Shown piece after piece: positions 3,771 through 48,533 of a DNA stretch of 64,000 bases. Each line of letters begins with the position of its first letter. Within the stretch, counting starts at the first letter, position 1. The DNA is from Pseudonocardia kunmingensis (lineage in GTDB: Bacteria; Actinomycetota; Actinomycetes; Mycobacteriales; Pseudonocardiaceae), in the NCBI RefSeq assembly GCF_006716445.1, contig NZ_VFPA01000001.1, forward strand, positions 2,542,001-2,606,000, written 5' to 3'. A program made the position numbers and the translations under genes. The notes below the pieces were generated by a model, which made no database searches, was not told where the DNA came from, and saw only the letters and a program-made list of their open reading frames with translations.

Positions 3771-4420
3771 CGCCCGCGGTGCCCGTCCGCGTGGTCGTGG
3801 CCGACGACCAGGCCGCGATCCGCACGGGACTCGGGATGATCCTCGACGCCGCCCCGGACATCACGGTGGTCGGTGAGGCCGCCGACGGGCTCGCCGCCGT
3901 CACGATGGCCCGCGAACAGCGTCCCGACGTCGTGCTGATGGACATCCGCATGCCCGGGATCGACGGCATCGAGGCCACGCGCCGGCTCGTCGGGGACGCG
4001 GTCTGCGAGGTCCTCGTGCTCACCACGTTCGACCTCGACGAGTACGTCGACTCGGCACTCGCGGCCGGGGCGGCGGGCTTCCTGCTCAAGTCGGTCGACG
4101 CGCCCGCGCTGCTCGCCGCGGTCCGCGCGGTCGCCCGCGGCGACGGGGTGCTCGCCCCCGAGATCACCCGGCGGGTCATCGCGCGCCTCGGCGCCCCGGC
4201 CCGCAGCCCGGCCCGGCCGGCCGGGCTGGACGACCTCACGCCCCGCGAGACCGACGTGCTCGCCTGCCTGGGCCGCGGCCTGTCCAACGCGGAGATCGCG
4301 GCGGAGCTGGTGATCACCGAGGCCACCACGAAGACGCACGTCTCCCGGGTGCTCACGAAGCTCGGGTTGCGGTCACGGGTGCAGGCCGCGATCGCGGCCC
4401 AGGACGCCGGGCTGACGTAG
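3764..4420 (+). CDS. NarL/LuxR-family response regulator
   Basis: This 218-residue regulator has a receiver domain (acidic pair ADDQ near residue 14, phosphoacceptor Asp60 in VVLMDIRMPG, Lys in GFLLKSVD), a short linker and a C-terminal LuxR-type helix-turn-helix (LTPRETDVLACLGRGLSNAEIA..TTKTHVSRVLTKL). It is the expected partner of the kinase encoded just upstream. The frame stays open to 3620, but translated repeat DNA precedes MSAPAVPVRVVVADDQ, so ATG 3764 is the start. Because the repeat units now separate the two genes by 165 bp, the translational coupling usual for such pairs is lost. Target genes are unknown. Confidence 0.92.
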   Translation: MSAPAVPVRVVVADDQAAIRTGLGMILDAAPDITVVGEAADGLAAVTMAREQRPDVVLMDIRMPGIDGIEATRRLVGDAVCEVLVLTTFDLDEYVDSALAAGAAGFLLKSVDAPALLAAVRAVARGDGVLAPEITRRVIARLGAPARSPARPAGLDDLTPRETDVLACLGRGLSNAEIAAELVITEATTKTHVSRVLTKLGLRSRVQAAIAAQDAGLT

Positions 4421-12429: not shown

Positions 12430-12484
12430 ACCCGATCCGGGAGCGGAGGGAAGATCCTCCGCCCCTGCGGTGTTGGATGCGTAC

Positions 12485-12925
12485 ATGCCATTGGACGGTG
12501 AGTTCGAGCTGAGCCCCGAAGGCTGGGTCCGCGACCAGACCCAGAAGATCATGGAGACGGGCACCACCGAGAGCGTCGACATCAAGGGCAGCCCGGTCGT
12601 GCTGATCACCATGCGCGGAGCCAAGAGCGGGAAGCTGCGCAAGGTGCCGCTGATGCGGGTGGAGAACGACGGCCGCTACGCCATCGTCGCCTCGCTGGGC
12701 GGCGCCCCGAAGCACCCGGTCTGGTACCACAACGTCAAGGCCGACCCCCACCTCGAACTGCAGGACGGCACCGAGAAGGGCGACTTCGTGGCCCGCGAGG
12801 TCACCGGCGACGAGAAGGCGCAGTGGTGGGAGCGGGCCGTCGCGGCCTACCCGGACTACGCCGACTACCAGCGCAAGACCGACCGTCAGATCCCGGTCTT
12901 CGTGCTGGAGCCGGTCGCGGGCTGA
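12485..12925 (+). CDS. nitroreductase/DDN-family deazaflavin (F420)-dependent oxidoreductase
   Basis: This 146-residue split-barrel protein of the Rv3547 (Ddn)-like family uses reduced F420 to reduce quinones or nitro compounds. Family features are [22 protein letters not shown], where the G-x-K-S-G-K-x-R segment binds the cofactor phosphate or ligand, the block [17 protein letters not shown], and a C-terminal [19 protein letters not shown]. Length is typical. ATG 12485 is preferred to GTG 12470. The gene diverges from thiD and ends five bases before the stop codon of the giant gene on the other strand. Confidence 0.9.
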
Positions 12926-12930: not shown

Positions 12931-15900
12931 CTACCGGCCGGACCGCGTTCGGAGCTTCCGGACGAGCGCCTGCGCCGCCCGGTTCCCGGCCGCCAGCAGG
13001 ACGGTCAACCCCGGCACCGCGCCGCCGCCGATCCAGCGACGAACCGCGGTACGGGGCGGCGTCCGTCCACCCGAGTGCGGGACGAGCCGGTGCAGCAGCC
13101 ACAACCCGGTGGCGCTGAGCCAGGCGGAGATCGCCGTGACGGTGGTCGGCCGGTCCGGATCCAGCCCCAGCACCACACCGACCCCGGCGAGGGCGGCGAG
13201 CAGGGCAGGCGACGCCGCCTTCGCCGTCGCCGCGACCCAGGGCCGGACCTGCGGCGGGCTGTGGGTCAACCGCGCCCGCCACGCGGCGATCTTCGAGCGT
13301 CCGCGCAGCCCGCCCGCGCCGATCCCCACCACGGCGCCCCCGGCCACCAGCGGGAGCCACTGCGCGGGCCACAGCGCGAGCAGCCCCCAGTAGAGCAGGC
13401 TGACGTTGCCCGCAGCGCCCATCACGCGCAGGTAGGTGCTCCCGAAGCGGCCGGGACGGGCGGCCTGGAGCATCCCCAGCAGGCTCGCGTACGCGAACGT
13501 CACCGTCAGGACCACGGTGACCGCCTGCATCACCGGGTCGAACGTCCCCCAGCCCGTGTCGATCGTCAGCAGCAGGTTCCCCGCGTTCGAGGTGATCGGG
13601 AACGCCACCCAGGTCACCAGCCACGCGGCCGCCCGGTCGAACCGCTCGCCGCGGCCGTGCACACCCCGGTACGCCGCACCCACGACGGACGCACCGAACA
13701 TCGCGCCGGTGGCCGCGTAGAGACCGGAGATCCAGGCACCGACCCCCGAGCCGGCCACCGCCGACGGGACCAGCCAGGCCAGGTTCACCACGAACGTGCT
13801 CACCAGCGCGACCGCCAGGACGACGCCCGGTAGCCCGCCCCGGGGCGGCAGCAGGTTCAGGCCGCCCCGCAGCGCGAACGCGGCGTTGCTCGCCCGGCCC
13901 TGGAACAGCAGCGCCAGCACCACCGACGGAACCGCGACGAGCAGCGCCGCCACGCCGGTCTGCACCCACCGCACCAGCGTGTCGGCCAGCGGGTGCGCGA
14001 ACCGGATCGGCGACGACCACGCCCCGACACCGACGACGAGCGAGCTCACCACGATCAGCCACCCGCGCGCCACGTCCAGCGGCGCCGTGGCCGACACCGC
14101 CGTCCAGATGCCGACGCCGGCCGCGACCGACGTGGCGACCTGCAGGCCCAGGTGCGCCAGGTTCGGGAGGAGGTGTTCGCGGTCCGCCGCCTGCCACCGG
14201 TCCCGCCCGCGGGCCCGGGCGGCGCCGGCGGCGTCGGCCACCGCGGCCCCGACGTTCCGCAGCCGCTCGGCACCCCGCACCCCGGCGGCGCCCACCGCGG
14301 CGCGGCCGCGCCACCAGACGTCGACGCCCCACCGCCACGCAGCGCGCACCGCGGCCCCGGCGGGCCGCGGCAGCACCGTTCCCGCGCGGGGCCGCTCGAG
14401 CAGCGCCGCGACCCGGCGCGCTGCGGCGCGCAGGACGAGCACCACCGCCGCCGACGCGAGCGTCCCGCCGACGAGGAGGCGCAGGAGCGACCCCCATCCG
14501 CCACCGGCGCCCGGAGGAGCTCTCGGCTCGGCGGAGTGATCGGGGGTCGGGCGCGTCGGCCCGGCCGACTCCGGGTCGCCCGGTGCCGGCTCGCCCGGCA
14601 GCGGCTGCTGCCCCGGCGGCGGTGTCCCCGGCGCGGGGTGACCGGTCCCGGGCGGGACGACCACCCACTCCCCCGGCCGGATCGCATCCCGGCTCCGCGG
14701 CGTCGGGAACCGATCTCCCTGTGCGTCGGCGAGCACGGCGACATCGACGCCGAACCGGGCCGCGATCGCGGTCAGCGTGTCTCCGGGCTGCACCCGCCAC
14801 CGGCCGTCCCGGTTCGCGGGGAGGCGCAGCGGCTCGGCCACCACGATCGCGTCCCGGCTCGCGGGGGTCGGGAAGCGGGAGGCGTTCGCGCGGACGAGAT
14901 CGGCGACCGGGACGCCCAGCCCGGCCGCGATCTCCGAGACGGTGTCACCCCGCTGCACCGTGACCGCGCGGGGCTCCTCGACGCGAGCAACGCCCACCGG
15001 CGCAGTCGGTGCCGCCGCCGCGGCGGACGGCGCGGTGCCGACCACGGGCAGGGCGAGGACGCCCAGCACCGCGGCGCCGACCAATGCCCGCCGGACGGCC
15101 GACGACCACGGGCCCCGGCGCGCCACCGCGGCGGTGGACACGTCGACACCGGATGCCTCGGACCGGGCGTCGGCCACCGGCCGGGCGTCGTGACCGGGGT
15201 CGGGTGGCCCGTGGAAGTGCTCCGCCTCGTGCGCCGCGACCTCCTGCTCCAGCGCGGCCTCGTGAGCCGGGTCCACCCGGCCACCGGTGACGAGCGGCCC
15301 GCGACGGCCGTCGTCCCCTGCGGGCGCGTGCTGAGGGGCGATCAGGCCGGAGTCGCCGGAGAGGTCGCCGACCGCCGACGGACCGCTGCCGTGGTGCGGG
15401 AACAGCCTGCTCCACCACGGACGGGCTGCCGCGCGCGCCGGAGCCCCGGGAACGGCCGTGGTGACGTCCCACGTCCCCGCGCCGCGGTGGTCGTGCACCC
15501 ACACCGGGCGGCCGGCGCGCACGAGGTCCGCCAGCTGCCCGCTGCTGAGGATCCGGCGCTCTCCCGTCGCGAGGAGGTCACGCACGTACGGCTCCGCGTC
15601 GGGGAGGGGCAGGCGGTGGGCACCCGGCGGGACCACCTCGTGCGGGTGCACGCGGGCCAGTTCCTCCCGGGCGTTCTGCAGCGACCGGCCCTCCACCTCC
15701 GGGAGCGCACCGGCCTCGAGCACCTCGGCGAACCAGTCCAGGCGCTCCGCGACCTGGGCCGCGAGGTCGTCGTTCGGCATCACGGACAGGACGGCGGCGT
15801 GCTCCGCGAGCAGGTCGGCGAACTGCCCGAGCACGTCCTCCTCCGTGAGCCGGCCGAAGATCTGGCGGAACATCGGCACCACCAGCGCGAAGAACGCCTC

Positions 15901-18900
15901 CGACCGGCCCAGCGCCTGGTCGAAGTCGATGCGGTGCAGCTCCCCGCCCCCCAAGAGCAGGTTGGTCTCGAGCAACCCGTCCCAGTCGCCGAGCAGCGCC
16001 GTGATCGCGTACTGCTGGGCGAGGGCGTCGCGCAGGTGCGCGGCCTCCGGGGTGGAGAGATCGACGTGCCGCCGACCCCCGGGGCTCTCGACGTACTCGT
16101 GCAGCTCCACCACGTCGCCGACCCGGACGACCTGGTCCCCGTAGGACGGGTCGACGATCGGCTCGACGGCGACGGCCAGCCGCACCAGCGGCACGCGGAC
16201 GCCGGACACGGCGAGCCTCCGGTACGCGGTCGCCGCCGTGACGCCGGGGAGCATCGCGCCGACGTCGCCGGTCCGCTGCTTGACCACCCATCGACGACCC
16301 GCCGCGTCGACGGCCACCAGGAACTTCGGGCGCCCGTCGCGCAGCGCCCGGCCCGGCGCGAGGTCCCGCACGTAACGCAGCCCGCTCAGCTCGGCCAGCG
16401 GCATGCCCCCGACCCGCCGCGCCGGGCCTGCGGTGCGCGACACGCGGTAGTCGGCGGCGACGGCGCGGTGGATCCTCGCGGTCAGCGCGCGGACCTCCAG
16501 GTCGTGCTCCGCCGCGTCGGCGAACCCGTCCCGGCCGTGGCGGCGCTCGTGGGCGAGCACCTCCTCCCACATGCCGATGCGTTCCAGCACCGCGCGGCGG
16601 TGCGCGAACGCCGCGACGACGAGGGTGCCGCTCGGCTCGCGCCAGCTGAACGCCCAGACGCCGAGGATCCGGCGGATCTGCTCCGGCGTGGCGCGGAGTG
16701 CGCGCAGCGCGTCCGCCACCGCGGCCGGGTCCGGCACGACGAGCTCCTCCGCCGGTTCCGGGGGCGGGGCTCGGGCGTGCACCGGATCCGCCCCGCTCCG
16801 CGGCCGGACGGCGGTCGACGCCACGGCGAACGCGTGGCGCGCCAGCGCGGTCTCGTGGGCGGAGAGCAGGCCCAGCGGGCCGCCGCCGCGCCCGTCCGTC
16901 GAGATCCACAGCGTGTACTCCGCCCGGCCCAGCCGGATCCGGTCGTGGTGCCCCACGCGCGTCACCGCGTCCGCACGGACCCCGTTGACCCTGATCGGCG
17001 TCGCCGGAGCGAGCGCGACGAGGTACCAGCCGCCGGCCCGGTGGACCAGAACCGCGTGGACGCGGGACACGGCGCGGTCGGACAGCCGGACGTCCGACGT
17101 CGGGCGCCTGCCGATGACCGCGGTCGCTCCGGTGATCTCGAACCTCTCGGCCGCCACCGGGTCCGTCAGGCGCACGCTCGTCCCCGGCGGGACGGCGTCG
17201 CGGTCCTGCGCGTCCACACCGGGCGGCGCCGCCACCACCAGCCGGTCGCCCTCGACGCGGCCCTCCCCGCGGGACACGAAGAAGCGATCCGAGCGCTCCA
17301 GCGCCGCCACCAACCTCGACGCGTCCTCCTGCAGGTGGATGGCCAGCTCACCCAGCCGCATGCCCTTCGCCTCGCGCACGAGCTCCTCGGCTGCGGCGAG
17401 CCGGCTCACCGGCACCTGGTGGCCGACCCGCTCCGGCTCTCCGGTCGACACGATCCGTCCGTCGACGGGCTCGAGGGCGGCCATGGGCGCGGCCGCGAGC
17501 GCGCGAGCACGCGCGTAGGCGTGCCGGAGCACCGCGGCGGCCGCCTCCGGTTCCTCCCGTTCGTACGGCTCGAGCGCTCCTGGGCGGACCGCCTGCAGCA
17601 GGGCGAGCTCGGCCCGGGCGCGGTGCACCGCCTCGGTGAAGACCGCGGCGCGCGCGGCGGGCTCGGTGCGCGCGACCTTCACCGCGACCACGGTGATCCC
17701 TTCCCGGCCGTGCACGGCGACCCGGGCGCCCAGCTGCCGCAGCAGGGCTGTCACCTCGGGCATGTGCGACCGCACGTTCACCCCGGTGTGGATGATCAGG
17801 GTCCCGCCGACCCGCAACGCCGTCATGACCTCGGCGAGCGCGCCGATCCGGTGCCGGGTGAACGCCACGTACGGCAGCCGCTCGAAGAACACCTCCTGGT
17901 AGTGCTCCGGAGGCAGCTCGAGCGCGGCGAGGTCACCCATGATGTCCGGCGCCGCGCTGGGGAGGATGTTGAGCGTGTCGTCGCGCGCCGACAACGGCGG
18001 CATGCGCGCGGCCCACCCACCGCCCACGACGAGCCGGCGCCCGTTCGGTGCGGTACGCATGCCGTCGGCCGGGGAGGCGGCGTCCGCCCCGGTCCCGCCG
18101 ATGTGCACGTGGTGCCGGAGGCGGGGGAGCTCTCGACGGACCGCGTCGCGGACGACGGCGGACCCGAGCGCGCCGCCGCGGATCGCCGCGAGCGTCCGGG
18201 GATCGGTGAACAACCAGTCGCCGTGGCCGCGGAACAGCAGGTCACCCGCCCGCTCGGCGAAGCCCTCGACGGCGCACAGGCCCGTGGCACACGGAGCGAT
18301 CTCGTGCAGACCGAGCCCGGTGAGCTGCACGAGCTCGCCGGGCAGGAGCACCTCGGTGGCGCGGCTCGGGACGAGGAGCGGCGCGAGGGCCTCCCGCCGC
18401 TTCGCGTCCACCCGCGGCGCCACCAGCCCCTCGACGTGGCCGCGCTGGTGGTCGAGCGCCTCGGCCGGGCCGGCCGCCGGGGACGCGGGTACCCCGCTCG
18501 CGCGGACGAACGCGGCGACCGTCGTGCCCTCCACCGCGAAGCCCATCGCGCCTTCGCCGCCGGCTCCCTCCAAGAGGCTCTGCATCAGACCGTGGACCGT
18601 GCCGTCGGGCCCGACGACAGGCCCACCGGAGTTGCCGGCGACCGCCCAGTCGTCGCCGACGAACGCCACGCCGGACCGGTCGATCCGCGTCACGAGGCCA
18701 CCGGTGACGAGGGCGTACTCGCCGCGGGTGGCCAGCGGCCCCGAGCTGATCGGGATGGTCGTGCCCGGGTAGCCGAGCACGGCCACCGCGACCCGCGGCC
18801 GGCCGGCGGCGAACACGACCGGGGCGACCGCGTGGCGCGCGAGCCGCGCGTCGTCGACCCGGACGACGGCCAGATCGAGGTCCCGAACGGTCGCCAGCAG

Positions 18901-21900
18901 TTCGTCGCGACCGCGACCCGCGCCGTCCCGGGCTGCGAGCTCGTCCACGACCGCCGCGGCGGTGGGGACGGGCAGGACCGTTCCACGGAACGTGCCCGCG
19001 GCCATCGTGACCGTGACCTGGGCGCCTGCCGGGTCCCACCCGTCGAAGCCCGCGTACTGCGAGTGCTCGGGGTCGACGACGTGCCGGTTGGTCACGACGT
19101 ACCCCGTGGTGCCCCGCACCGCGTACACCAGCCCGGACCCCCACCCCCCTCGATCGGGAACCACGTGCGCCAGCCGGGCGAGGACCGGATGCGGGCGGAG
19201 CCCGAACTCGGGTGCCTGCATGGCCGCCCGCTCCCACCCCTGCAGCGGGCCGGACGCGTCGAGGACCCCGGCGAACACCGTCTGCAGCTGCGGTGCGACC
19301 CCGACGGCGGCGGCCAGCGGTGCGAGGTCGGGCAGCGGCGCCCGGTCGTGGACCTGCCACTCCGCGGCGTCCGGACGCGCAGTGTGGGTCAGCTCGTGCG
19401 CGAACAGGGCGTGCCGCGCGGACGCATCCAGCACCCCCGCGCGCAGCGCGTCGTACACCCGCCGGTCCAGCGTCAGCCTGCCGCCCCCGTCCGCCCACAC
19501 CGCCAGGTCGCCGGGACCGCCCGCCGCGGCGATCTCGGCGTTCAACCCGTCGACCACGCAGACACCCGTGCAGCCGCGCCCGCGCATCCCCTCCGCGGTC
19601 CACCCACCGGTGAGCGACACCAGCCCCGGGTCGTCGACGCCCAGCCGCAGCCCGACCGGCATCCGGGCGACCACGTGCGCGACCACCGCCTGCTGCCGCT
19701 CGGTCGCCATCCCGCCGCCGAGCAGCGACGCGCCGCCCGGTGGGCCGTGGTCGCGCACCACGTCGCGCCGTCCGCCGGTGGGACGGTGCGCGAGGGTGCG
19801 GGCCACGAGGACGCCGACGGCGGCGGCCGTCGCGGCGGTCGCCGCGGTCAGCAGCGGTGCGACACCCGGGCCTGCGGCCGACACCGCCACCGGCGCCGCG
19901 GCGGCCGCAGGCGCGACCACCAGCACCACGAGCACGGCGACCGGAACCGCCACCGCGAACCGCGCCGTCCACGGGTGGGCGTCCGCCCAACGGGCGACGG
20001 CGGCCGCGGACGCGCGGAACCTGCCGGCGATCCCGCCGCGTTCCGGCGCCGGCCCCGCCGCCGGCGCGGCGCCCGGGATGCGGGCGAGCTCGGCGCCGCG
20101 CGCGACGGCGGCGGCCAGCCGGTCCTGCAGTGCCCGCTGTCGTGCTTCGAGGGCGCGGGCGCGCGGGCCGGTGTCCTGCGCCGCCGCGATCCGCGCGTCC
20201 ACCCGGGCCAGGGCGGCGGCCAGTCGCTGCTGCCGGTCGTGCTCGCGACCGCGCGCCCAGTGCAGGTGCCGGCTCTCGTGCAACGGTGGTGCCGCGGCCT
20301 CCGCGGCGGCCCGGGCCACCCGGCTCCACTCGGTCCGCAGGCGCTCCGTCCGCGCGGGCAGCCACTTGCGCCCCGGCTTCCAGTCGCGCCGCTCATCGAT
20401 CTTCGCCAGCTGCGCGACCAACCGTTCGAGCGTCGCGCCCCGGCTCGCCGAGGCCCGCCGGGCGAACTCACCCGGCAACCGCGCGAGGCTCTCCCGGATC
20501 TGGGCCGCGCGCTCCTCGTTCTCCTCCAGCGCGGCGCGCAGCCGCGCCCGGGCGCGTTCCGACCTCGCCTTCCCCAGCTGCGCGCGCTGCCACGCCTGCT
20601 CGGTCAGGTTGCGCACGAGCATCCGCTGGGCGTGGTTGACCAGGTGCCGGAACGCGCGGTCCGCCCACCGGTCCGGCACCCCCGCGAGCAGGCGGCCCAG
20701 CCGCCCGGGCGCCACCTTCACCAGGCCACGGGCCAGCCCGGACACCATGCTGCCGACGACCCGGCTCAGGCCCGTCCACAGGTCGAGCACCTGCCGGCGC
20801 GCGTTCCGCTCGCGCACGAGCTCCTTGTAGAGCCGCCGCGGCTCCACGATCGGCGTATCCGCGTACGCGACGAGGAACCCGACGAAGTGGAACGTGTACA
20901 GGGTCAGGCGCCGACCGGCGACACCCTTGTCGTACGAGGCCACCCAGTTGCCCAGCCGCTGCCGGACCCGCGTCCACCCGACCACCTTCGGCGCCGGCAC
21001 CCCCGGCATCGTCGTGACGTCCACGGGGCTCTGCACGAACGTGTAGAGGAACGGCCCGAACTGCAGTCCGAGGACGTTGAGCCGTAGCCACAACCGCGCA
21101 TCCGGGATGACCGTGACCGGCCACTTCATCCGGTTCTCCGGCTCTTCCCGCAACCCCCGCGACATCGACGTCGACAACGTCCCGAGCAGCACCGAGACGA
21201 CGCCCACCAGCTCCACCAGCACGAACGGTGCCAGCGCCCACGTCCACAGCGGCACGCTCGCCAGCGGGAACAGCAGCGCCACCATCCACGTGCGCTCCCA
21301 CCGGATCGAACCGAGGAACCCCCGCAACCCCGGCTGCGCACCGGGCGCCCGCGCGGTCTTCAGGTGCGGGAACATGAACCAGAACGGCAGTACGGCCGCC
21401 GCCCACTGCGGGCCCAGCACCCACGAGACGACCGCGACGATCGCGGCCGGGACGATCGGCACGTAGATCCGCCCCTCGGTGCCGAACCGCGCGTGCCCAC
21501 CCACCTTGCGCACCCGGTGCGCGCTCAGCCCCTGTGCGGCGGCCACCTCCCGCGCCGCGCGCACGGACTGCGCCAGTGCGCGGCCCGCCTCGTCCCGGGT
21601 CGCGGCCGGCCCCGCGAGCTCGGCGGCGGTGGCGTCCGCGGCGCGTGCCGCGGCGAGCTCCGTCGACGCCCGGACCAGATCGGTCAGCTGGGCGCGCGAG
21701 GCCTTGACGCGACGGCGCACGTCATCGGCGGTTCGCCACGACCGCAGCCGCAGCGGAACCATCCGTCCCGGGCCGCGCTCGACCTGACCCCAGGCCAGGA
21801 CGGCGTCGGTGAGCCACGCGCGGACCGCGGCGGCCTGTGCCGGGAGCGGCAGGCCGGCCAGGCCCACACCCGCCACACCCAGCGGGTTGCGCCACAACGC

Positions 21901-24900
21901 GTCGACGACCTGGGGCGGCGCCCGGGCGAGCACCTGCCCGAACACCCCGCCGGGGCGGAACCGCTCCACCCCGGCGCCGTCGACCGACCGCTCCAGCAGC
22001 CCGACACCCGCGAGGTCGCGCAACCAGCCGGCGATCTTCGTCGGTCCCGCGCCCCGGTGCGGGCCACCGGCCACCACGTGCCGCGCGGCCGACACCGTCC
22101 AACCGGGGAGGCCGACCGCGCGCTCCGTCGCGGGCCGCAGGCCGAGGTCACCGAGCACGGCGTGCAGCTCGTCGGCCGAGAGCCCCTGCGGCGAGCGCCG
22201 CCACAGCCCCGGGCCTGCACCGTCCGCGCCCCACCACACCGCTCCCAGCAGCCGCCACGCGTCCCAGGCGGCGGCGTCGCCCGCGCCCGGCCGGGCCGCC
22301 GGCAGCCGGCCCCAGCGCAGCACCGCCGCGCGCAGTCCCCGCTGCCGCGCCGCCACCCGTCCACGGTCGGTCACCGGCACCGACCCGGGCGCCGCCCCCG
22401 GCCGCCTGCCGAGCCGGGCGTCGACCGCGGCGAGCAGGTGCGCGGCCTCGGCCAGCAACGCCGCCCGCTCCACCCGGGACGCCCCGCGCAGCCCCCGGTG
22501 GGTCTCCGCCAGCCGGGTGAGCAACTGCTGCACCGCCGCCGGCTCCCGGGAACCCCGCACCCCGAGCGCGGACCCCACCGTCCGGCGCAGCCTCGCGAGC
22601 CCAGCCAGCAGACCTCGCCCGCCACCCCCACGCCGCACGCCCGGCGCCACCTCGATCCGCCGGTCCACGTACTCGGCGAACGCCGCCGCCTCGTCCAGCA
22701 GGTGGTGGCGCACCTCGTGCCGACCCCGGAAGACGGGGTCGCCGCGGTGCGCACCGGGGTGGTCGAAGCGCACCTCCTCGTGCCGGAACACGTCCAGCAC
22801 CCAGCCGTCCAGCAGGCGCTGCAGCTCCCCGGCGAGATCGTCGCGGCCGAGGTCGCGCGCTACCTCGACGACCTCGTGCACCCGCTGGACCCGCGCGAAC
22901 ACCTCCGCGTCCACCGCCACCAGCCGCTCCCGGCTGCCCGCCCAGGCGAACCTGGTCACGCCGTCCACGCCGTACTTCGCAGCCGCGCGTGCCGACAGAC
23001 CCCGCACCGGCAGCACCCGCAGGACCCCGACCGGCCGGCCGCGGCCGTCGCGCACCGCCACCGGCACGATCACCGCGCGGCCGCTCCGGTACCGCCCCGT
23101 CAGCCACCGCGCCAGTCCCGCGTCCGCCCGTGCCGGGAGATCGCCCGCATGCACCGACGGCACGCGGGACGCGGTCGACCCGGCGCCGGCCGCGGTCCCG
23201 GCCGTCGCCCGCAGCGGGCTCAGGTCCGGCAGCGGCGGCAACCGGTCGTGCGCCACCCGCTCCCCGGCCGGCAGCCGGCCGTTGCGCAGCTCGGCGAGCT
23301 CGTGGGTGCCCAGCATCCGCAGCGCCGTGTGGTCCAGCGCCCCCGCGTCCAGGGCCGTCAGCACGTCCGCGTCGACGTACAGCAGGCCGGTGCGCGCGTC
23401 GGCGTGGACCACGAGGTCGTCGACGCCGCTCACCCGCGCGACGTCGCGGGTCAGCCCCCGCACCGCGCACAGGCCCCCGCAGCCGGCGTTCTCCACCTCG
23501 GCGTGGGGGAGGCCGAACAGGTCGGCCACCTGCTCCGGCCCCAGCCGCGTGACCACGGGCGCCCGGTCGAGCAGGGCGACGATCGCCACGAGCTGGTCAC
23601 GGGTGAGGTCGGCGCCGGAGATGCGGGCGGGCCCACCGGCAGGCTCGGTCGGCTCGCTGCCCGGCGGTCCCCGCGCGGGGTCGGTCGTGCCCGTCCACCT
23701 GGAGGCACCCGGCAAGGCGGGGCGGGTGCCGGCATCCGGGTCGCCCACGCCGGGATCGGCGAAGGACGGCGCCCAGAACCCGGTGGTCGGGAACTCCTCG
23801 GGTGCGCTCCAGGCGGCCTTCCGCTGCGCGAGCCAGGTCCGCCCGGTGATGGAGCCCCCGCGGACCTCGTGCAGGCGGGCCAGCGCCGTCTCGATCTCGT
23901 AGCCGCCCAGCCCTGCTCGTTCCAGCCGGGCCTTCAGCGCCGCCCCGTCCACGCGGTCCACCGCATCGCGGACGGCGCCGCTGAGCGGGCTGCCCTGCTG
24001 GGCCAGCACGAACTCCGACCCCCGCGTCAGCAGCCCGTCCAGCTCCGCGCGCGGGAGGAACGCGAACCCGTGGTCGATGAGCTGCAGCCGGGCGCCGTAG
24101 GACAGGTAGTTCGACTCGCGCCGATCGGTGTTCGCCATCACGTAGTCGAGGACCGCCACGCGCTCCCGGTCCCACGCGTCGTACCCCGAGATGTCCTCGA
24201 CACCGCCGTACGCGAGGTGCACCCACCGCTGGACCGAACCGGGCCCGTGCTCGCCGTTCCACGCGACGGTCACCGGCACGAGGTCCTCCCAGCCCAACGC
24301 CACCGCCAGCTCGTACGCGGCGATCTCGCGCGCCGGTTCGCCCGGTGCGGTGCTCTCGGGCTTGTAGACGCCCACCAGGCGGCCGTCGACGAACACGGCG
24401 TACGGCCCGCCCGGGTACCCGTCGATCGCCCCCAGCTGCACGTCGCCGCCGAGCATCCGACGGAACTCGCGGCGGGTCTGCGCGGCGGGCACCTCGGTCA
24501 GCCGCTCGACGACCCACCGCGCGTGCTCGTCGTGGACGTGCTCGTCGTAGGCGTCCCGCGCAGGCGCGTCCGGGTCCAGGTGGAACAGCCGCGCGTGCTC
24601 GACGGCGTGGTGGAGCAGACCGTGGCGGCGCAGCTCGGCGAGCCGGTGCTCGGGCACGACGATCACGCCGACGCCGGTCGCCGTGTCCGGCCAGGAGAAC
24701 TCGACCACGCGCCGCGCGAGGTCCACCGCCTGCCGCTGCGGCACGCCGTCGCGCCGCAGCTGCCCGACGACGTCGGAGACCTGCGGGACGAAGAGCTCCT
24801 CGTCGTCGCGCAGCCCGGCCTCCGGCGGACCGCGGTTGCGCACCGGGCGCCCGTCGCGACGGGCCACGGCGGCCTTCCACATCCGCGCCAGCGCCTGCTG

Positions 24901-36900: not shown

Positions 36901-39900
36901 CGCGCCCCAGCCCTCGTTCTCGACCCGGTTGGCGCCCTCGGTGACGCCGCCGCCGATCACCACACCCGGCAGCGAGAGCAGGCCTGCGCCGACGGTGACG
37001 GCGTCGCGGCCGAGGTTGCGCCCGAAGTTGTCGGTGCCGGCGCCGAACTCCTTGTTGTACAGCCGCACCGACTCCGCGGTCGTCCAGTGCGCGCCGTCGA
37101 GCATGAACTCGAAGAAGCCGAGGACGCTCTTCGGGTCGTGCTCCTCGACCTTGTCGGCGAGGTTGTCCTGCTCCTCCTCCGACAGCACCGACCCGACCTT
37201 GCTGCGCAGCCAGCTGTGGTTGATCTGGCGGAGGATCGCGTCCTTGCGCTCGCTGTAGCCCTCCCCGCCCGACCAGCCGAGCAGCATCCCGGCGGCCTGG
37301 TCGGCGGTCGACGGCGTGCTGGCGAGCCCGGCGACCTCGAAGTCCGTCATCCGGCCCGGGTCGCGGTCCCCGTAGGTCCAGGTCGCGGCGATGTTGGAGA
37401 GCTCGTCCGGGTTCAGGTTCGCGAACGGGCTGTTCGCGTCGTCGGCGACCTCGAGGATGTAGGGGTATCCGGCGGCGGCCCGCATCGCCAGCGCCAGGTC
37501 CGCCGAGCCCGTCGACGGCAGGTGCATGTCGCTCAGCCGGTTGGACGGCGCCCGCGGCGCTTCGATGGCTGCCTCGTAGCCCATCCGGACCGCGTCGCTG
37601 AAGGTGGCGATCGTGACCGCCGTGGCGAGCTGTTCCTTCGTCTCGGCCGCCGGCAAGGCCTCGACCACGCCGTTGATCGCATCGAGGTTCTGCCTGGCCA
37701 GCTCGATGTCGGCGGCGTAGCCAGGGGCGTCCGCAACACCGGCGGCGTAGGCGTCGTAGGCGCGCAGGACGTCCTGCGACCCGTCGAGGGTCTCGAGGAA
37801 GGGCTTGCGGTCCGCGGCGAGGTCGGCGGCCAGCTCGTTGATCGCGAGCCGCTCGGCCTCGAGGTCCTCGTAGCTGCCCCCGCGTCCGGCGTAGTAGTCC
37901 TGGACGGCCTTCTCGTAGGCCTGCTGACGGCGGTCCAGCGCGTCCTGGCGGGGCTGCAGCTCGCCCAGGTCCTCGGCGGCGATGCGGGAGACCTCCTGCT
38001 GGTCGAGCAGGATGTTCTTCGCCCTGGTCAGCTCCTCGTTGGTCGGGTCCGTGAGGTTCGGCTGCCCCAGGATGTCGCCGACGAGCTCGGGGTTCTCCGC
38101 GAGCTGCCGCTCGATGTCCTGCGTGGTCCGCTGCTGGGTGCCCTTGACCTTCAGCACGGTCCCGAGGGCGTCCTCGGTCCGCCCGAGGCGCTCGCGCGTC
38201 TTGGGGGAGAGCGCCTCGATCTGCGCGGCGAGCTCGTTCGCCTCGGCCTGGGTGATCCCGCCCTTCTTCGCCTCCGCGAAGGCGTCCGCGACCGGCTGGA
38301 CCTCCTCGTTGCCGTCCTCGGCCATCCACCGCAGGTGGCCCTGGTCGCGGGTGAACTCGAACGCCGCCCGGCCCCGGTCCAGGAGCGAGTCGGAACCCTG
38401 GTTCGCGATCGGGCCGATGAACCCGTCCGGACGCTCGCCCGGCTCCGTCATGCCGAGCGCCTCGGTGACCTTCCGGTCCGGCTCCACCCACTCCAGCCGT
38501 CGCTCGGCCGGTTCCGACCCGCGGCACGAGCTCCCCGCGCCCGCCACGCACGCCTGGCCCTTGTTGTAGCCGTCGGACTCGGCGTAGAGCAGCGCGGTGC
38601 GGCCCTTGTCGCCGCTGGTCGTGACCCAGTTGCCGAAGGCGTCGCTCCCGTACGCCGTGGCGTCGCCGCTGAGGAAGGCGACGGCGCCACCGCCGCTGCC
38701 GTCGGCGTTGCGCAGGTACTGGACGAAGTCGGCCTTGCCCTCGTCGCCGCGGTCGACGTTGATGTGCTGGTAGTCCCGGCCACCGTCCTTCAGCGGCACG
38801 CCCCAGCCGCTGCAGCTGCCGCCCGTGCCGACCGAACAGAAGTTGGTGCCGCCCTTGCCCTTCTCGGTCGGCATGTAGTGGCCGCCGGTGCAGCCGTAGC
38901 ACGACAGCTCGGCGCCCTCGGCCGACAGGACCGTGCCCCAGCCGTCGATCTTCAGCAACCCGCCGAGACCATCGGCGCCGCGGGTCACGATGTCGATCTT
39001 GCCGTCGGCCATCCCGGTCGGGCTCGTCACCACGTCGCCCTCGGCGGAGGTGAAGCGTCCCTTGCCGTCCCAGGAGATCCGCGCGGGGTTGCCGTGGACG
39101 TCCCGCCCGACGATCGAGCCGGACGGGGCCTCGATCACGGCCTTGTCCACCCCGGGCTTGCCCTCCAGCTCCGCGCCCGTGTAGATGCAGCCGCCGTTGC
39201 AGGTGGACGTGAACGGGGAGCCCTTCGGGTTGGTCAGGCGGAAGGTGTTGGTCGCCTTCTCCGACGGCGCGGACCGGGTGTACTCGACGGTCTCCCCGGT
39301 GCGGCCGTTGGTGACCGTGCCCGTGCCGCGCACGTACCCGCCGCCGTTGCCGTTCTTGTCGCGGGCGATTCGCACCCCGTCGGAGCCGGTGGCGGAGTCA
39401 CGCTTGCTGCTGCCCGTCTCGACCGGCATCGAGGCGCGGTAGCGCTCGCTGGCCTTGCGGTCCGGGTCGTAGCCGACGCGTTCCCCGCCGGGGCCCTGCT
39501 CGTCGACGCCCGCGCAGGGCGACGGGCAGGTCTCGCCGTAGACCTCCCCGCCCTTCGGCTTGATCTTCCAGACGACGTCGCCGTCCTCGTCGCGCTCGAT
39601 GAGCACGGCCTGCTCGTCCTTGCCCAGTTCCTCGATCTTGACGGGCTCACCGTTCTCGTCGAGGACCTCGCCGGGGCCGAGCTCCACCTCAGGCGCGGTG
39701 GAGGTGAAGGTGTTGCCGCCGTCGGTGTCGCAGGACGAGTAGGTCCCCGAGCAGGAGCCCCCGCCACCGCCACCGGGGCCGGCCTGCGCCCACGCCGTGA
39801 CGCCGCACCCACCGCCGGACGAGCCCCCGCCCGAGCAGGTGGCCTCGCCGAAGGCGTCCCAGTACCCGCCGTCGACGTCCTTGTGGTCACGCGCCTCCGC

Positions 39901-42900
39901 GTGGGCCGAGTAGCTGGTGCTGCAGTTGGCGGCGCCGGAGCAGGTCGCGCTCGCGTTCGCCCAGCCGGGGCCGGCCGAGGCCTGGGCGCTCACGCTGACC
40001 CCGCCGCTGCCCTGGCCGCCGCCCCCGGAGCCGGAGGCGTTGGCCTTCGCCCACGAACCGGACGGGTCGGAGGCCGACGCCGACGCGCTCGCGGAGTAGG
40101 AGTGCCGGCAGTTGGCGGCACCGGAGCACGACGCGCTCGCGCTCGCCCAACCCGGACCGGCCGACGCCTGGGCCGACACCGCGACACCGCCGCCGCCCTG
40201 GCCACCACCACCCGAGCCCGACGCCGACGCACTCGCCTGCGCACCCGCCGCCGACGCCGACGCCGACGCGGACGCCGAGTACGAATGCCGGCAGTTCGCC
40301 GCGCCCACGCACGACGCCGACGCCTGCGCACTCCCCGGGCTCGCCGACGCCTGCGCCGACACCGCCACGCCACCGCCGCCCTGGCCACCACCACCCGAGC
40401 CCGACGCCGACGCACTCGCCTGCGCACCCGCCGCCGACGCCGACGCCGACGCGGACGCCGAGTACGAATGCCGGCAGTTCGCCGCGCCCACGCACGACGC
40501 CGACGCCTGCGCACTCCCCGGGCTCGCCGACGCCTGCGCCGACACCGCCACGCCACCGCCGCCCTGGCCACCACCACCGGACCCGGACGCGGACGCCGAC
40601 GCGCGCGCCCCCGGGGCGGACGCCGACGCGGACGCGGACGCCGAGTAGGAGTGGCTGCAGCGCGTGCCCGCGGTGCCGCTGCAGGAGGCCGACGCCTGGG
40701 CGCTGCCCGGGGCCGCCACCGCCGCCGCGGTGGTGACCGCCTGGCCCCCGCCGAACGTCCCCGACCCCGACCCGGTGGCGTGCGCGCTCGCCCGCGCACC
40801 GGCGGCGCTGTCGGACGCGCTGCTGTGGGCCCGGTAGGAGTAGGAGCAGCCGGACCCGGCGCTGCCCTGGCAGGCGGCGCCGGCCATGGCGTGGTCCGCG
40901 CTCGTGTCGGCGGCGGCGCTGGTGGCGCACCAGCCCGATCCGGTGCCGCCGGCGGTGCCGCACGTGGCCTTCGCGGTGGCGGTGTTCCCGCCGGAGCTGC
41001 TGGCCGCGGTGCTCGAGGCGGAGTAGCTGTGCCGGCAGGTGGCTCCCTCGCTGCCCTCGCAGGAGGCCGAGACCTGCGCTCCGGTCTCGTCGGCACCCAC
41101 GCGGGACGCTCCCGTGCACAGTCCGCCCGTGCCTGCGGTGCAGTCGGTGCGCGAGTTCGCCGTGTTCTGCCCGTTGGGCGCGGCCGCCCGTGCGCTTCCC
41201 TCGGTGTGGGTGCGGCAGCCGGTACCGGCGCAGGTGGCGGTGACCTCGGCGAGGTCCTTCGCGGCGAACCCGCCGGTCGCGGCCTGGCAGGCTCCGGCCG
41301 CGGCGCAGGTCGCCGTGGACCTCGCGGTCACCTGCGACGCTCCGGTGACACGCGTGGCCGACGAGGCGCGGGTCGCGCAGCCGGTGGCCGATCCGTCGTC
41401 GCACGCCGCGGTGACCGACGCGCTCGTGGTGGCGAAGCGCTCGTCCTCGGCGGCGCCGGGGGCGGTGGTCGAGTCGCTGGAGGAGGCGGTGAGCTGTGCC
41501 GTGCACGCCCGGGTGCCGTCGCAGCCGGTGCCGCCGGTGGCCGTGCTGTGGCTGGTGCGCCCGGCCGGGCCGGCGGTGGCGTCGGCGGACCCGGTGAGGG
41601 TGTCCGTGCAGCCCGCCTCCGGGCACACCAGCTGCGAGCTGGTCTGGCCGCTGGTGGTGCGGCCGGGGATCGTCTCGGGCTTCTCGCCCTGCGTCGTGCC
41701 GGCGTCGCGCACCAGCGTGGCGGCGGCGTCGCTCGCGACGGCGCAACCGCTCTCGGCGGCGGTGCAGCTCGCGTCGGTGCGCGACCCGCCCGCAAGACCC
41801 GCGGTCTCGCCGCTGGTGCGGGCGGTGCAGCCCGCCCCGGCGCACTGTGCCGTCGCCGAGGACTGCGCCAGCGCGGCCGGCGCGTCCGTCACCGGCTTCG
41901 CCGCCAGGTCGGCCGCCTCGCGGGCGGCCTGGCGGGCCTCGGTGGCGGCGGTCGCCGCCTCGCGGGCCGCCTTCTTCTGTTCCGGGGTGGCGCCGGTCTG
42001 CGCGGCGATCCGCGCGGCGTCTGCGGCGTCCTTCTCCGCCTGCGAGGCCTGCGCGGCCTGCTGCTCGGCGGCGTCGTTCTGCTGTTCGGCGATGATGTCG
42101 GCCACGACCTGGCCGGATCCCGCCGTGGAGTTGCTCTGCGCCTGGCAGCCGCTCTCGCCGGCCGCACAGCTCGCGGTGGTGCTGGATCCGCCGGCCGGTG
42201 GGCCGCGCGCCCCGTTCCCGTCGTTCACGGCGGTGGGGCCGTCGCTGCCTGCGGCCGAGGTCCGGGTGGTGCCGGCGCAGTCACCGGAGCCCCCGGCGCA
42301 GTCCAGGGTGGCCGAGGCCATCGTCCAGCTCGACGCGCCCGCCACGGTGGGGCCACCGGTGTTCGCGCTCGAACCCGGCGCGGTCGGCGCCGGCGGGACC
42401 GAGGGCTGGTCCTGGCCATCGGCCGGGGCCTGCTGGTCCTGTGCCGGGGCGTCGCCGGTGGTCTCCGACGCCACCGTGGCGTTCGCCGTGGAGCGCTCGG
42501 CCACCAGCGGCGCGATGACGTTCGCATCCGGACCGCTGGACGCCCCGGAGTTCGTCACGGCCTGGCACACCCCACCCGAGACGCCCTCGCACGAGCCCTC
42601 GCTGCGCGAGCCGCGCGGGTCCGGCGAGACCGACGGGTCGGTCGCGGTGGCGGCGCTGGAGACCTTTCCCTCGCAAAGCGCCTGCCCGTCACACATCAGT
42701 GCCGCGCCGGCCGCCGACGCCGCCGACGGCCCCGCGGGGAGACGGGCGGTGTTGACGCCCTTCGGCGCACCGTTGGCATCGAGCTGCTCACCCGAGAGCG
42801 CGAGCGCCGCGCCCGACCCGGTCGACGCCTGCGACACCGAGTGCACCTCGCACGCGCCGCTGCCGCTCTCGCAGCTCGCCGTGCCCTCCGACGTGCGCGG

Positions 42901-45900
42901 CGTACCGCCGTTCACGCCACCGTCCCAGGCGGCGGTGCTGGTCTTCACGGTGCCCGAGCACGCGGTTCCGCCCTCGCACCACAGGCTCGCCGACGACGAG
43001 GCGGTCGAGGTCGGGCCGCTGGCCGGCTGCCCGGCGACCGGGAGCCCGGTCTCCGGGTCGGTCACCACGAAGTCCGGCGCCGACGACGCCGACGACGTGC
43101 TCGACCCCTCGCAGCCGCCACCGGTGACCGTGCAGCCCGCGGTGGCCCGGGTGCCGCGGGCGTGTGGCGAGACCGCCGTGTCCCGTGCGCTCGTCTGCGA
43201 CATCGTGGTGCCGCCGCACTCCCCGGCACCGCCGTCGCACCGCACCGACGCGTTCGCCTGCGACACGCTCACCGGCCCCGACACCGCGGTCACACCCGCC
43301 TCCGCGGCCTCCCGCGCCGAGACCGGGTCGCGGTCGCCGACCATCGTGCCGGCCTGCGCCCCGCACCCACCACCCTCGCCCTGCACCGAGCACGTCGACC
43401 TCGCCGTGCTGTCCCGCACCCCGGTGACGTCCCCCGACGCCGCACCGGAGGTCGTCGCACGGCCCGAGCCCGTGCACGCCGCGTCGTCACAGTCGACCTG
43501 CGCGTCCGCGGTGCTCGACGCCCTCAGCTCGCGGGCCGCGACCGGCGCGACCGCGGCCAACCCGTCCGCCCCGTCCCACCTCGGCTCGCCCGCCCGGTCG
43601 CCCACCTCGGACGACGAATCGGTCGCGCAGTCGCCGGCCGAGGCCGCGCAGCTCGTGGAGGCGCTGGTCTCGCGGACCGGCGCCGCCGCACCCGCGGCCG
43701 CGGCGGTGCCGGTGACCTTCCCGCCCGTGGACGACTTCGCCGTGCCCGCGCAGCCCGCGGCACCGTCACAGTCGACAGAGGCGTCGGCGTCGCTGGTGCC
43801 CGCGCTGTCACCGTCCTCGGCATCGGTGGCGGAGTCGCTGCGGGTCTCGCAGCCACCGGCGCTGACCGTGCAGCTCGCCGAGCCGTTCGTCGCCGTGCGC
43901 GGGGAACGCGTCGCGGCGGTGGCGCCCGCGGCGTCGGTGACATCGGCGATCGCGACGTCGTCGTGGCCCGCGGCGGTGGTGCTGGTGGCCTTCCCGGTGC
44001 AGGCGGCCTCGCAGTCGACGGACGCGTCGGCGCGCGCCTCACCGTCGGTGTCGGAAAGCTCGACGGAGCTGGCGGTGCCGCAGCCCGCGGCCGAGTCGCA
44101 GTGCGCCGAGCTCGTGCCCTTGCCCCGCTGCTCGCTCGCCGGGCCGGTCGCCGCCGGGACCGTCCGGCCCGCCGCCACGAACCCGGCACCGCCGTCCCCG
44201 CCGTCCGACCCCGCCGCGCGCGCCGCGTCCCGATCGGTCCTCGACCCGCTGCTGGTGCTGTCGCACGCCCCGCCGTCGGTGTCGCAGCCCGCCTCGGCCT
44301 GCGACCGGTCCGCGTACGAGTCCGTGGCGCACCCACCGGTGCACGAGGCTGCCGCCGACGCCCGCTCGTCGGGCGCCTCGGACCGCTCCGCCTGTGAACT
44401 GCCGGGCCCCGAACTGTCACTGCGACACGATCCGCCACCGGAGTCGCACGCCGCCGCCCCGCCGTCCGGGGTCGCGACGCTGTGCTGGGAACAGCCGCGT
44501 GCGTCGCCGTCGCACCGCGCCGACGCCGTGGTCTCCTCCCCGTCCGCGCCCCGGCTCGACGCGCTGGAGCCGCAGCCGGCGTCCGCGCCGGACAGGTCGC
44601 AGGAGGCCTTGCTCGTGTTCTCCCCGGACTTCGACGACGTCCCGCACCCCGACGACACCCCCGACAGGGCCACGCACCGGTCCTCGTCGCGCTCGCCGTC
44701 CTCGGACTCCGAGACCGACCCGCACTCCACGAACGCGCCGTCCGACCCGCAGCCGGCGGCGGACCCCTCGCCGTCCAGGCCGTCCTCGGGCACCACCCGC
44801 GCGTCCCGGTCGGTGACCTCCATCAGCTCGTCGGTGGCCTCGTAGACCTCGTCGCGCTGCTTCTCCAGCTCCGCGACGCCCCGCGCGTGCTCCTTCTTCG
44901 TCACCGACCCCGCGGCGACCTTCTTCTCCTCGGCGTCGAGCTTCTTCTGCGCCGACTCCAGATCCCGGTGCCCGTCGACGACCTCGTCGACCAGCTCCGC
45001 ACGATCCTCCGACAGCTCCGCCCGATCCTGCGCCACCTGCTGCTCCAGCTGGGCGTGGTCGGCGGCCTTCTTGTCGTAGGCGGCCTTGCTCAGCTCACCC
45101 GACGCGACCTTCTTCTTGTCCCGCGCCAGGTCCTTCTCGCTCTTGTCGACCTCGATCCGGCCCTCGAGCACCCGCTCGGTGTGCTCGGCCGAGTCGTCGT
45201 ACTCGCGATCCTCGTCGTCGCGATCCTCGTCGTCCTCGTCCTCCGCGAGCAGCAGGCGGTCCGCGGGCGGACCCCGCGACTTCGCATCGGAGAACTCCCG
45301 CGACCCGGCCTGCGACCGCTCGCACCCGTCGCCGCCCGCGCCGCAGGCCCGCGAGCGCCCCTTGCGGTCCGGTCCCACACCGTCGAGGGAGAGGTGCTCA
45401 CCGTCGCCCGTGCTCAGCAGCTGCGCGAGGACCGCGTCCTCGGCCGCGGCCCGGTCGCGCGACCCCTCCGACTTCCGGTCGCCGCGCTCGGCCCCCTTCT
45501 CGACGGCGGCCCCTGCCTCCTCCGACGCCTTCCGGACCGCCTTGCGCACAGCGCCGGCCACCCGCTCGGCGTCGTCCTCCGACACGCCGGCCCGGTCCGC
45601 GGCGAACCGCACCGCGTCGTCGACCAGGTCGCCGACCGCACCGGACACGTCGCGATCCGAGTCGCGGTCCGAGTTGCGGCCCCGCGCCTCGCGGGCCAGG
45701 TCCCCGGCGCGCTCGACAAGGCGCCGCACGTCCTCGCCCCGGCCCTCGCCGTCATCGCCGCGCGCGAGCTCGGACGCGACCTTCTCGGACACCGCGCGCC
45801 GCAGCGCTCCCGTGGCCTCATCGCGGTCGCCGTGCTCCAGCGCGTCGCGCACAGCCTTCCGCGACCGGGAGGCCTTCTCCTCGGCGCGCTCGTCGGAGTG

Positions 45901-47886: not shown

Positions 47887-48533
47887 GACGAACGACTCCC
47901 GTGGATCGACGCGATCAGGAACGGACGTGCGGAAACCGACGGCCAGCGCCGTGGACGCACAGAGCTACTGCAGACATGCGAAGAAAGGGGATACCCGCAC
48001 GTCGCGCCTGAGGCAGCGACCCGCCACCGGACGGTGGAATACACGTCCGGCAACCCCTGCGGTTCGCCGGGCCGCCCGTTGCGCAACGTCAGCAACCGGT
48101 GGGAACCGGAACCGCAACCTCCCCCACAGGGCGAGGCAACGGGGAAGCTACCAGATGTTCATGTGATCCGCGAGCCCTTGGCCGAGCGTTTCCCCCGCAG
48201 TCGCGGGTGCGGAGCCGGAGCGGGCCGGTCACCAGCTCGGGTCGCGGGGCCCGGCACCAGGCCGAACCGGACGGGGTGCGCCGGCTCTCTCACGGCGCCC
48301 GGCGCCGGGCTCGCAGCACCCTCGGTCGCCGGCGCCGGTACCGCCCCCACCCCCGCGCGTTGACATCCGCGCCCGCCTGCACGGGCCGTTCACCGGTCCC
48401 GGCCGCTGTTCCCACCGACCGTTCTCCCCGCCTCGACGCCGCGGTCCGGCGTCGTGATCGCCCCCGCCCCACGCCACCCGCCCCGACGGTGGGCGGAAAT
48501 CCCTGCACCGACGGAAACGGTGGCAACCGATTC
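47887..48533. other. 647-bp leader region of the giant gene, no gene seen
   Basis: It contains GGGAG (47896-47900, minus strand) 9 nt before the giant ATG. No confident -10/-35 pair, riboswitch or gene was recognised. Open frames here lack recognisable protein features. The length suggests regulated expression. Confidence 0.5.

Follow-up and report, generated by a model that had tools for sequence, protein, structure and literature searches.

RAPP and RGPP form the core of translation arrest peptides, and arrest by RGPP is the most stable and is refractory to EF-P (PMC12992588; this and the other papers below are cited from the excerpts available). Both motifs arrest in many contexts and are avoided in bacterial proteomes; across ten major bacterial groups no tetrapeptide is more under-represented than RGPP, an avoidance attributed there to stalling, and of the nine S. 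lividans proteins with either motif all seven tested arrest (PMC12992588). The mechanism of RAPP-type arrest at the ribosome has been solved (PMC10951233), and arrest is cancelled by the localisation machinery during translocation or insertion, which is thought to act by pulling (PMC7897499, PMC10951233). In addition, giant actinobacterial secreted toxins with helix-turn-helix (HTH) arrays and a SecA-like ATPase have been mentioned once (PMC8195603). Here we analyse a 64,000-nucleotide stretch of the Pseudonocardia kunmingensis genome (the window, part of contig 1 in a 9.14-Mb assembly) and one giant gene in it, at 12931..47886 on the minus strand, defined by its open frame and codon-position GC, which runs from an ATG to a stop codon at 12931-12933 and encodes 11,651 aa.

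The repeated RGPP/RAPP motif is in our view the most informative feature of this protein and is absent from the first-pass annotation of the window. We give about even weight to a reading in which the gene encodes one giant with a predicted exported stalk, a SecA-type core and an exchangeable tail, and in which the motifs likely stop the ribosome and are released by the pull of export, insertion or folding. The motor part, used as query, retrieved giant frames in many genomes of the genus, including one of 10,474 aa with 60% identity (G007) and others of 16,249, 14,950, 15,668 and 12,473 aa. Fifteen giants, the window protein included, formed the discovery set, and six further giants were held out. 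The frames of the 14 discovery relatives span 8,036-58,239 codons and contain no N; relatives' frames are taken from stop to stop and may include up to several hundred pre-start residues (e.g. G080b), and contig ends truncate or shorten those of G060, G017 and H080, the first two being on short contigs.

In the discovery set (259,921 aa), RGPP occurs 133 times against 7.7 expected, a 17-fold excess over composition, RAPP 46 times against 11.5 (4-fold) and HGPP 12 times against 1.8 (6.6-fold). The total of PP is at expectation (830 versus 848), and altered positions lose the excess (KGPP, 1 versus 1.8; RGPA, 20 versus 20.9). The 211 sites of the form R/H-A/G/S-P-P fall into 146 context clusters, 84 of them RGPP, and their codons mostly differ from site to site, which rules out a single repeat or a DNA motif as the source of the excess. 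Individual giants hold 6-34 motifs. The window protein has 12 R/H-A/G-P-P sites against 1.0 expected, while 200 local shuffles gave a mean of 1.28 and a maximum of 5.

Background frames, which were open reading frames selected by codon-position GC and not annotated genes, lack this enrichment. Specifically, 306 frames of the same genome hold 3 RGPP (4.3 expected) and 1 RAPP (6.1 expected), and 13 long frames from nonribosomal peptide synthetase regions of the genus (3,850-6,665 aa) hold none of five variants, with ~10.5 expected, PP also being low there (230 versus 340). Consistent with the discovery set, the six held-out giants contain 49 RGPP (2.6 expected) and 25 RAPP (3.8 expected), but only one KGPP and one KAPP (0.6 and 0.9 expected). 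Their 80 sites form 52 clusters, 38 of which are absent from the discovery set, and counting a single site per new cluster still leaves 23 RGPP and 10 RAPP.

The motif sites of the window protein are as follows; counts of tail sites refer to alignments with relatives.

45265..45276, minus strand: RGPP at aa 871, stalk site 1, aligned within 13 columns in 13 of 19 giants
42196..42207, minus strand: RGPP at aa 1894, stalk site 2, aligned within 2 columns in 15 of 19 giants
31312..31323, minus strand: RAPP at aa 5522, kept in 1 of 4
29098..29109, minus strand: RGPP at aa 6260, R[AG]PP in 4 of 4
25846..25857, minus strand: RGPP at aa 7344, kept in 0 of 4
24823..24834, minus strand: RGPP at aa 7685, RGPP in 7 of 7 alignments to 5 relatives
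23662..23673, minus strand: RGPP at aa 8072, kept in 1 of 1
21913..21924, minus strand: RAPP at aa 8655, kept in 3 of 4
19738..19749, minus strand: HGPP at aa 9380, kept in 0 of 4
16762..16773, minus strand: RAPP at aa 10372, RGPP in 5 of 6
15202..15213, minus strand: HGPP at aa 10892, kept in 0 of 2
14512..14523, minus strand: RAPP at aa 11122, kept in 4 of 11
13252..13263, minus strand: HSPP at aa 11542, kept in 1 of 2

The two stalk sites were placed by aligning the N-terminal 3,300 residues of 19 giants, the window protein included, over 7,928 columns with the motifs masked (G017 and G060, being cut, were left out), where masked X residues could slightly favour aligning with each other. 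In a line-up of seven giants chosen for having both stalk sites and aligned on the motif, G and A interchange at site 1. Each held-out giant has between one and three sites ahead of aa 2400, and the stretch from there to aa 5227 is free of them. Furthermore, all ten giants carrying GEGKT lack a site in the 900 residues from Walker A onward, and the largest motif-free gap spans the motor in 19 of 21 giants, starting at residue 0 in G011a and in the cut G060. Of the 211 sites, 44 follow a hydrophobic segment by no more than 20 aa, against 10.7 expected (held-out, 17 of 80 against 7.4), and 46 precede one by no more than 30 aa, against ~16 (held-out, 19 against 10.4). Several motifs sit between modules.

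R/H-G/A-P-P could instead be a processing or linker signal, cut by a protease that is perhaps the giant's own trypsin-like or HExxH module, so that the giant would be a polyprotein. Protease modules do occur inside the protein, Trypsin_2 is found in 5 of 18 scanned pieces of relatives, and the motifs between modules would suit a linker. We nevertheless consider processing improbable, since lysine shows no excess in either set, both prolines are required, and the prevalence of G over A matches reported arrest strength. In addition, sites 6260 and 7685 lie within conserved modules, and the avoidance of RGPP in ten bacterial groups is itself ascribed to stalling (PMC12992588).

The giant frame is a real gene. 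The first-pass annotation had described an unbroken frame of 34,956 bp and 11,651 residues, and this holds: the minus-strand frame is open, its third-position GC (GC3) is 0.88-0.97 in 30 of 30 blocks (29 of 400 codons and one short final block) while second-position GC is 0.44-0.80, and it has relatives up to 70% identical. Frame length alone is weak proof at 75% GC, because the plus strand harbours a 5,054-aa shadow frame, antisense to the gene, at 21364-36528. Substitutions relative to the closest relative, G064, are highest at codon position 3 in 9 of 10 blocks (blocks of <60 codons excluded), with rates of 0.26-0.48 against 0.11-0.29 at positions 1 and 2; the tenth (aa 7727-8033, 41% identical) is about level across positions 1/2/3 (0.38/0.44/0.41). 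Tail blocks compared with other relatives have position 3 highest in 12 of 13 cases. Their margins are small and the crude ratio of nonsynonymous to synonymous substitution rates (dN/dS) is ~1 in several of them, leaving the evidence of selection less clear for the tail.

These tail ratios, together with the shadow frames of up to 5,054 aa and the standalone-type enzymes and transporters in the tails, would fit a largely passive giant surface protein or an eroded fusion, in which stops are rare at 75% GC, neighbouring genes fuse and the frame stays open. Such an origin appears very improbable in view of the coding signature over the full length, the position-3 excess against G064, the invariant motor motifs and the aligned stalk motif sites.

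The other features of the protein, from the N-terminus on, are as follows.

47674..47787, minus strand: hydrophobic export-type segment followed by A-x-A-like sites, aa 34-71, from the sequence, with the N-terminus matched in relatives and a putative signal function
45187..47673, minus strand: low-complexity stretch rich in Lys, Asp, Glu, Arg and Ser, aa 72-900, from composition
39637..44799, minus strand: Cys-rich (4-5% Cys), Ser/Thr/Gly/Ala-rich stalk, aa 1030-2750, from composition
36367..39561, minus strand: family-defining conserved region, aa 2776-3840, from comparison of relatives
36592..36666, minus strand: moderately hydrophobic conserved helix with basic residues after it, a putative stop-transfer, aa 3741-3765, in 10 of 10 aligned members
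35197..35922, minus strand: three HTH-like repeats, aa 3989-4230, from Pfam (below cut-offs) and sequence
33022..34692, minus strand: SecA-type motor with motor motifs, comprising nucleotide-binding domain (NBD) 1, preprotein clamp and NBD2, aa 4399-4955, from profiles and alignment
31957..32916, minus strand: helical tail of the motor, aa 4991-5310, conserved in the family and unmatched to the SecA scaffold, from a structure model and profile alignment
12934..31986, minus strand: exchangeable tail, aa 5301-11651, from comparison with relatives
31312..31722, minus strand: CxGxC module 1, aa 5389-5525, from the motif
25000..29958, minus strand: tail module common to G010, G017, G080a and G080b, aa 5977-7629, from alignment of its first 524 aa
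23767..24969, minus strand: possible kinase-like (SCO1664-like) module, aa 7640-8040, a weak match
23242..23649, minus strand: CxGxC module 2 with HELAE, aa 8080-8215, from the motif
19297..19707, minus strand: CxGxC module 3 with a HELTH (HExxH) motif, aa 9394-9530, from the motif
18586..19140, minus strand: Trypsin_2 with GNSGGP, aa 9583-9767, from Pfam and sequence
18097..18456, minus strand: related, degenerate module 4, aa 9811-9930, from the motif
17617..18069, minus strand: possible methyltransferase-like module, aa 9940-10090, a weak match
16927..17118, minus strand: FHA, aa 10257-10320, from Pfam
15442..16449, minus strand: second kinase-like module, aa 10480-10815, from the motif only
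14653..14967, minus strand: two LysM in the loop between two hydrophobic segments, aa 10974-11078, from Pfam and hydropathy
13057..14199, minus strand: C-terminal membrane part, aa 11230-11610, from hydrophobic segments

A Pfam scan of aa 2701-11651 placed the SecA motor (SecA_DEAD, SecA_PP_bind, P-loop_SecA and DEAD), Trypsin_2, FHA and two LysM above the curated cut-offs, Yop-YscD_cpl matching the same stretch as FHA. Curated models thus secure four module types (SecA motor, Trypsin_2, FHA and LysM), and the at least ten unrelated domain types of the first-pass annotation shrink to these. The HTH repeats that it named are visible as three HTH-like repeats, the best of which scores 20.8 of the 25 bits required by Pfam. 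Of its kinase-like parts, the first matches TIGR03843 at 41 bits against a cut-off of 172, and the second has no match in the Pfam and NCBIfam scans or in a follow-up search. Also visible in the sequence are a signal-like N-terminus, repeats rich in Cys and hydrophobic segments towards the C-terminus. An NCBIfam scan of aa 60-2800 gave no match, and sequence searches with the shared tail module found no known fold. A segment at aa ~3920-3985 (window 35930-36130), with LGVxRxAT...AY and DPV in place of HPD, may be J-domain-like.

The motor matches the SecA profile with an E-value of about 1e-106. Walker A, the DEAD box and the helicase motifs of both NBDs are invariant in six aligned members, TGxGKT and DEAD are invariant in seven of seven, and the preprotein cross-linking (clamp) domain is present. 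The window motor thus has the same NBD1, clamp, NBD2 and motor motifs as SecA, but differs in being fused into a giant and in its detectable scaffold: Pfam finds no SecA_SW match for the helical scaffold/wing, and the profile alignment stops at about residue 630 of the 884-aa SecA. Beyond the aligned part, the structure model is helical with middling confidence. Of the self-contained export machine proposed at first pass, the ATPase and clamp signatures are kept, and no helical scaffold/wing was detected. Giants outside the family (P0003, from Elusimicrobiota, P0004 and P0005) have SecA-like motors beside C39, Ulp1 or PF14113 domains, and motor plus peptidase may be a wider theme.

The charge and cysteine patterns are compatible with a topology in which the stalk would be outside, the motor inside and the LysM pair outside. 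The N-terminus with its hydrophobic segment is matched by BLASTP in four of five relatives (windows of 46-83 aa; G017 is cut); the G011 and G009 giants have a different N-terminus with a hydrophobic stretch visible by eye, that of G011 being under the 1.9 threshold. Cys makes up 4-5% of aa 1030-2750 against 0.1% of the tail, aa 2793-3125 are predicted as beta-sheet with invariant Cys pairs and are followed by long helices, and the last of the pairs, which are invariant in nine sequences, is at aa 3121. Hydropathy of the helix at aa 3741-3765 is only 1.0-2.0; the preceding net charge is 0 to -3, and in 10 of 10 members the next 15 residues carry +2 or +3 and no acid. LysM pairs lie between two hydrophobic segments in seven of seven places, where the downstream segment has a positive far side in six and the upstream segment a positive near side in four.

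These observations suggest how the protein might be built. Because the chain is rich in a ribosome-stopping motif, the giant would likely be made in a stop-and-go manner. The hydrophobic N-terminus would likely direct it to the Sec pathway, so that ~3,700 residues, with the Cys pairs up to aa 3121, would leave the cytosol. Synthesis would pause at aa 871 and aa 1894 and, unless export draws the stalk outward, would not resume; the two sites would act as a checkpoint ahead of most of the 35-kb message. The helix at aa 3741-3765 would likely stop transfer, which would leave the HTH-like repeats and the motor in the cytosol, as the patterns of charge and cysteine suggest. In the tail of exchanged modules with membrane hairpins, the LysM loop likely grips the cell wall, and the motifs, which lie beside membrane segments above chance family-wide, would pace insertion and folding. 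In the weakest step, the product may be an envelope-spanning device for contacting other cells, with a motor and proteases that would shift tail modules or release them.

We infer arrest, force release, topology and the cell-contact role from sequence. With somewhat less than even confidence, we propose a ladder of internal arrest sites, at which, outside the motor core, synthesis would halt roughly once per 900 residues and restart only when export, insertion or folding pulls. Taken jointly with this ladder, and held just as tentatively, force-gated synthesis could be a route to build and quality-check envelope-spanning proteins of 8,000-58,000 residues. By the same still doubtful account, the arrest peptides would serve as construction checkpoints within the protein and not as regulators of a neighbouring gene.

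Several observations weigh against this account of paced synthesis. The ribosome exit tunnel holds about 30-40 aa, and the motif often follows a hydrophobic segment by 0-20 aa, less than that length, so the adjacent segment itself cannot pull. Among 49 alignments of 11 window tail sites, only 26 keep the motif, and sites 7344, 9380 and 10892 are kept in no relative aligned. Stalk site 1 is unaligned in G000b, G080b and G009, G010 and H021 have only site 2, and G011a has neither; moreover, the largest gap does not lie over the core in G021 and the 58,239-codon giant, and G017 has an HGPP inside the conserved pre-motor stretch. With respect to the counts, RAGP, the SecM version, is not enriched (19 versus 20.9), the RSPP excess of the discovery set (15 versus 4.1) did not replicate in the held-out set (2 versus 1.4), and a first control of 177 frames from fetched loci showed no depletion (RGPP, 2 versus 1.9; RAPP, 3 versus 2.9). 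The held-out H033 and H064 are close relatives (54-97% over blocks), and in the 58,239-codon relative motif density is, at 0.43 per 1,000 aa, half that usually seen. Three SecA-bearing giants outside the family have motif counts of 1, 0 and 0, so there is no tie between the motif and the SecA motor as such. The predicted topology draws on hydropathy and charge only, and the upstream LysM segment is oriented the opposite way in G021 and G009. Furthermore, when 23 RAPP-like fragments of ordinary proteins from E. coli and B. subtilis were tested, most failed to arrest efficiently (PMC10987492).

The family-defining stretch, aa 2776-3840, was found in 22 of 62 Pseudonocardia genomes and, among the 40 with completeness of 90% or more and contamination of 5% or less, in 12; up to 12 candidates were scored per genome. 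In the order-level sample (up to four candidates per genome; up to seven at class level) the only positive among 160 genomes was the source genome itself, with 0 of 159 others. The searches in the genus and order thus point to a family confined, in this sampling, to Pseudonocardia. The source genome contains a second giant of 8,036 codons (G000 contig 1, 3,291,549; L031-L032) with a like N-terminus and motor. G011 has frames of 58,239 and 40,947 codons with no N and no stop, and its ten frames matched by family probes total ~240,900 codons, ~7.5% of 9.6 Mb (lengths come from reading four of these frames and, for the rest, from the open-frame listing). The longest (contig 3, loci L036-L045) has a GC3 of 0.85-0.91 throughout and 131 hydrophobic segments, with major facilitator superfamily (MFS) transporter modules near the C-terminus (L036) and GGDEF, TauE, NUDIX and cation efflux domains elsewhere.

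Comparison among the giants indicates that most of them combine a predicted exported-type stalk, a conserved SecA-motor core and a tail of exchanged modules. The window core (aa 2751-5300) is covered to 28-100% by 17 of the 20 other giants and to only 9-19% by H062, H010 and H080, while coverage of the window tail across the 20 is 0-63%. Tail blocks are out of order in 7 of the 11 giants with at least two blocks, in G011a solely through a repeated LysM block. G064 matches much of the front up to aa 5299 as well as aa 5389-5522, at 52-69% identity, and the match largely ends thereafter. In G017 (L094), the motor is swapped for a distant one (28% identity) behind a 58% identical stretch, and H010 has a tail like that of the window protein (63% cover) behind a different core (19%). 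A kept core with a swapped, partly reordered tail is, on this sequence comparison, the pattern of recombining modules.

This organisation is also what a secreted giant of the polymorphic-toxin type would show, with tail effectors for other cells, a SecA-like ATPase that aids secretion or translocation, and motifs of secondary importance. A prediction of such an architecture has been published (PMC8195603), and the relatives' tails contain proteases and, in one scanned piece, a match to the papain-fold toxin PF15644. We consider a toxin unlikely, as it leaves the motif unexplained and as the tail of several relatives includes complete transporters as well as GGDEF and NUDIX domains, which, with 2 to 131 hydrophobic segments per giant, would be odd for a secreted toxin. 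In addition, Pfam (aa 2701-11651), NCBIfam and PADLOC recognised no toxin domain in the window gene, and no immunity gene was recognised among the ten neighbouring frames scanned (frame 12470-12925 left out). Of the giant polymorphic effector raised at first pass, beside the export machine and a scaffold as third option, the polymorphic organisation is supported, with no toxin domain recognised in the window gene and no immunity gene recognised beside it.

Eight of those ten neighbouring frames have household or regulatory domains by Pfam, namely ThiC, phosphomethylpyrimidine kinase, molybdopterin-binding, Fer2, ABC transporter, histidine kinase and trypsin-PDZ protease. The two frames upstream of the start have no Pfam match and failed the codon-position filter, and ~2 kb upstream of the start codon (48290-50136) is without a convincing gene. 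No shared neighbourhood was seen across eight relatives.

Returning to the reading of a giant paced by arrest, its closest counterparts are the RAPP-type arrest peptides (ApdA, ApdP, ApcA and the RQH family), which share the RGPP/RAPP motif, an upstream export signal and avoidance of the motif elsewhere in proteomes. The known peptides, as described in the available excerpts, are mostly small, with the motif near the C-terminus and upstream of a regulated gene (PMC12992588, PMC10987492), whereas here the motifs are internal to a giant of 11,651 aa and the next frame downstream (12470-12925) is on the opposite strand. Neither motif ladders inside giant proteins nor a role of arrest in pacing the construction of one giant protein turned up in the literature searched, as far as its available excerpts go. 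If the reading is correct, translation arrest would pace the construction of a single giant protein, which bears on how >10,000 residues can be synthesised, exported and folded as one chain without jamming.

Several known giants are comparable in size or organisation. SACTE_5178, a Streptomyces polymorphic toxin of 13,652 aa, is likewise a giant actinobacterial protein with several domains (PMC3482391, in excerpt), but its ART, caspase and lethal-factor-like domains have no match in the window gene (Pfam, aa 2701-11651; NCBIfam). The Omnitrophota giant open reading frames (up to 85,800 aa, PMC12057145; 39,678 aa, PMC10066038), compared here by their description in the available excerpts, share size and membrane segments but belong to another phylum and are described as poorly conserved with few annotated domains; the present family contributes a 58,239-codon frame in an actinomycete genome. 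Polymorphic toxin systems share the conserved front and the exchangeable C-terminal part. The giants of PMC8195603 share the HTH-like repeats, SecA-like ATPase and protease motifs, with transporter modules in relatives of the window protein, so the earlier view that no such system had been described must be qualified. They are mentioned for a GT4 domain, which had no match in aa 2701-11651 of the window protein (Pfam, E 0.1) or in 34 scanned pieces of relatives, and the available passage is silent on arrest motifs, sizes and topology. Thus, judged from that passage, the SecA-bearing giant architecture had already been mentioned (PMC8195603), and what is new is the motif richness of the chains: RGPP, avoided in bacteria, is concentrated in this family, with its stalk sites at aligned places.

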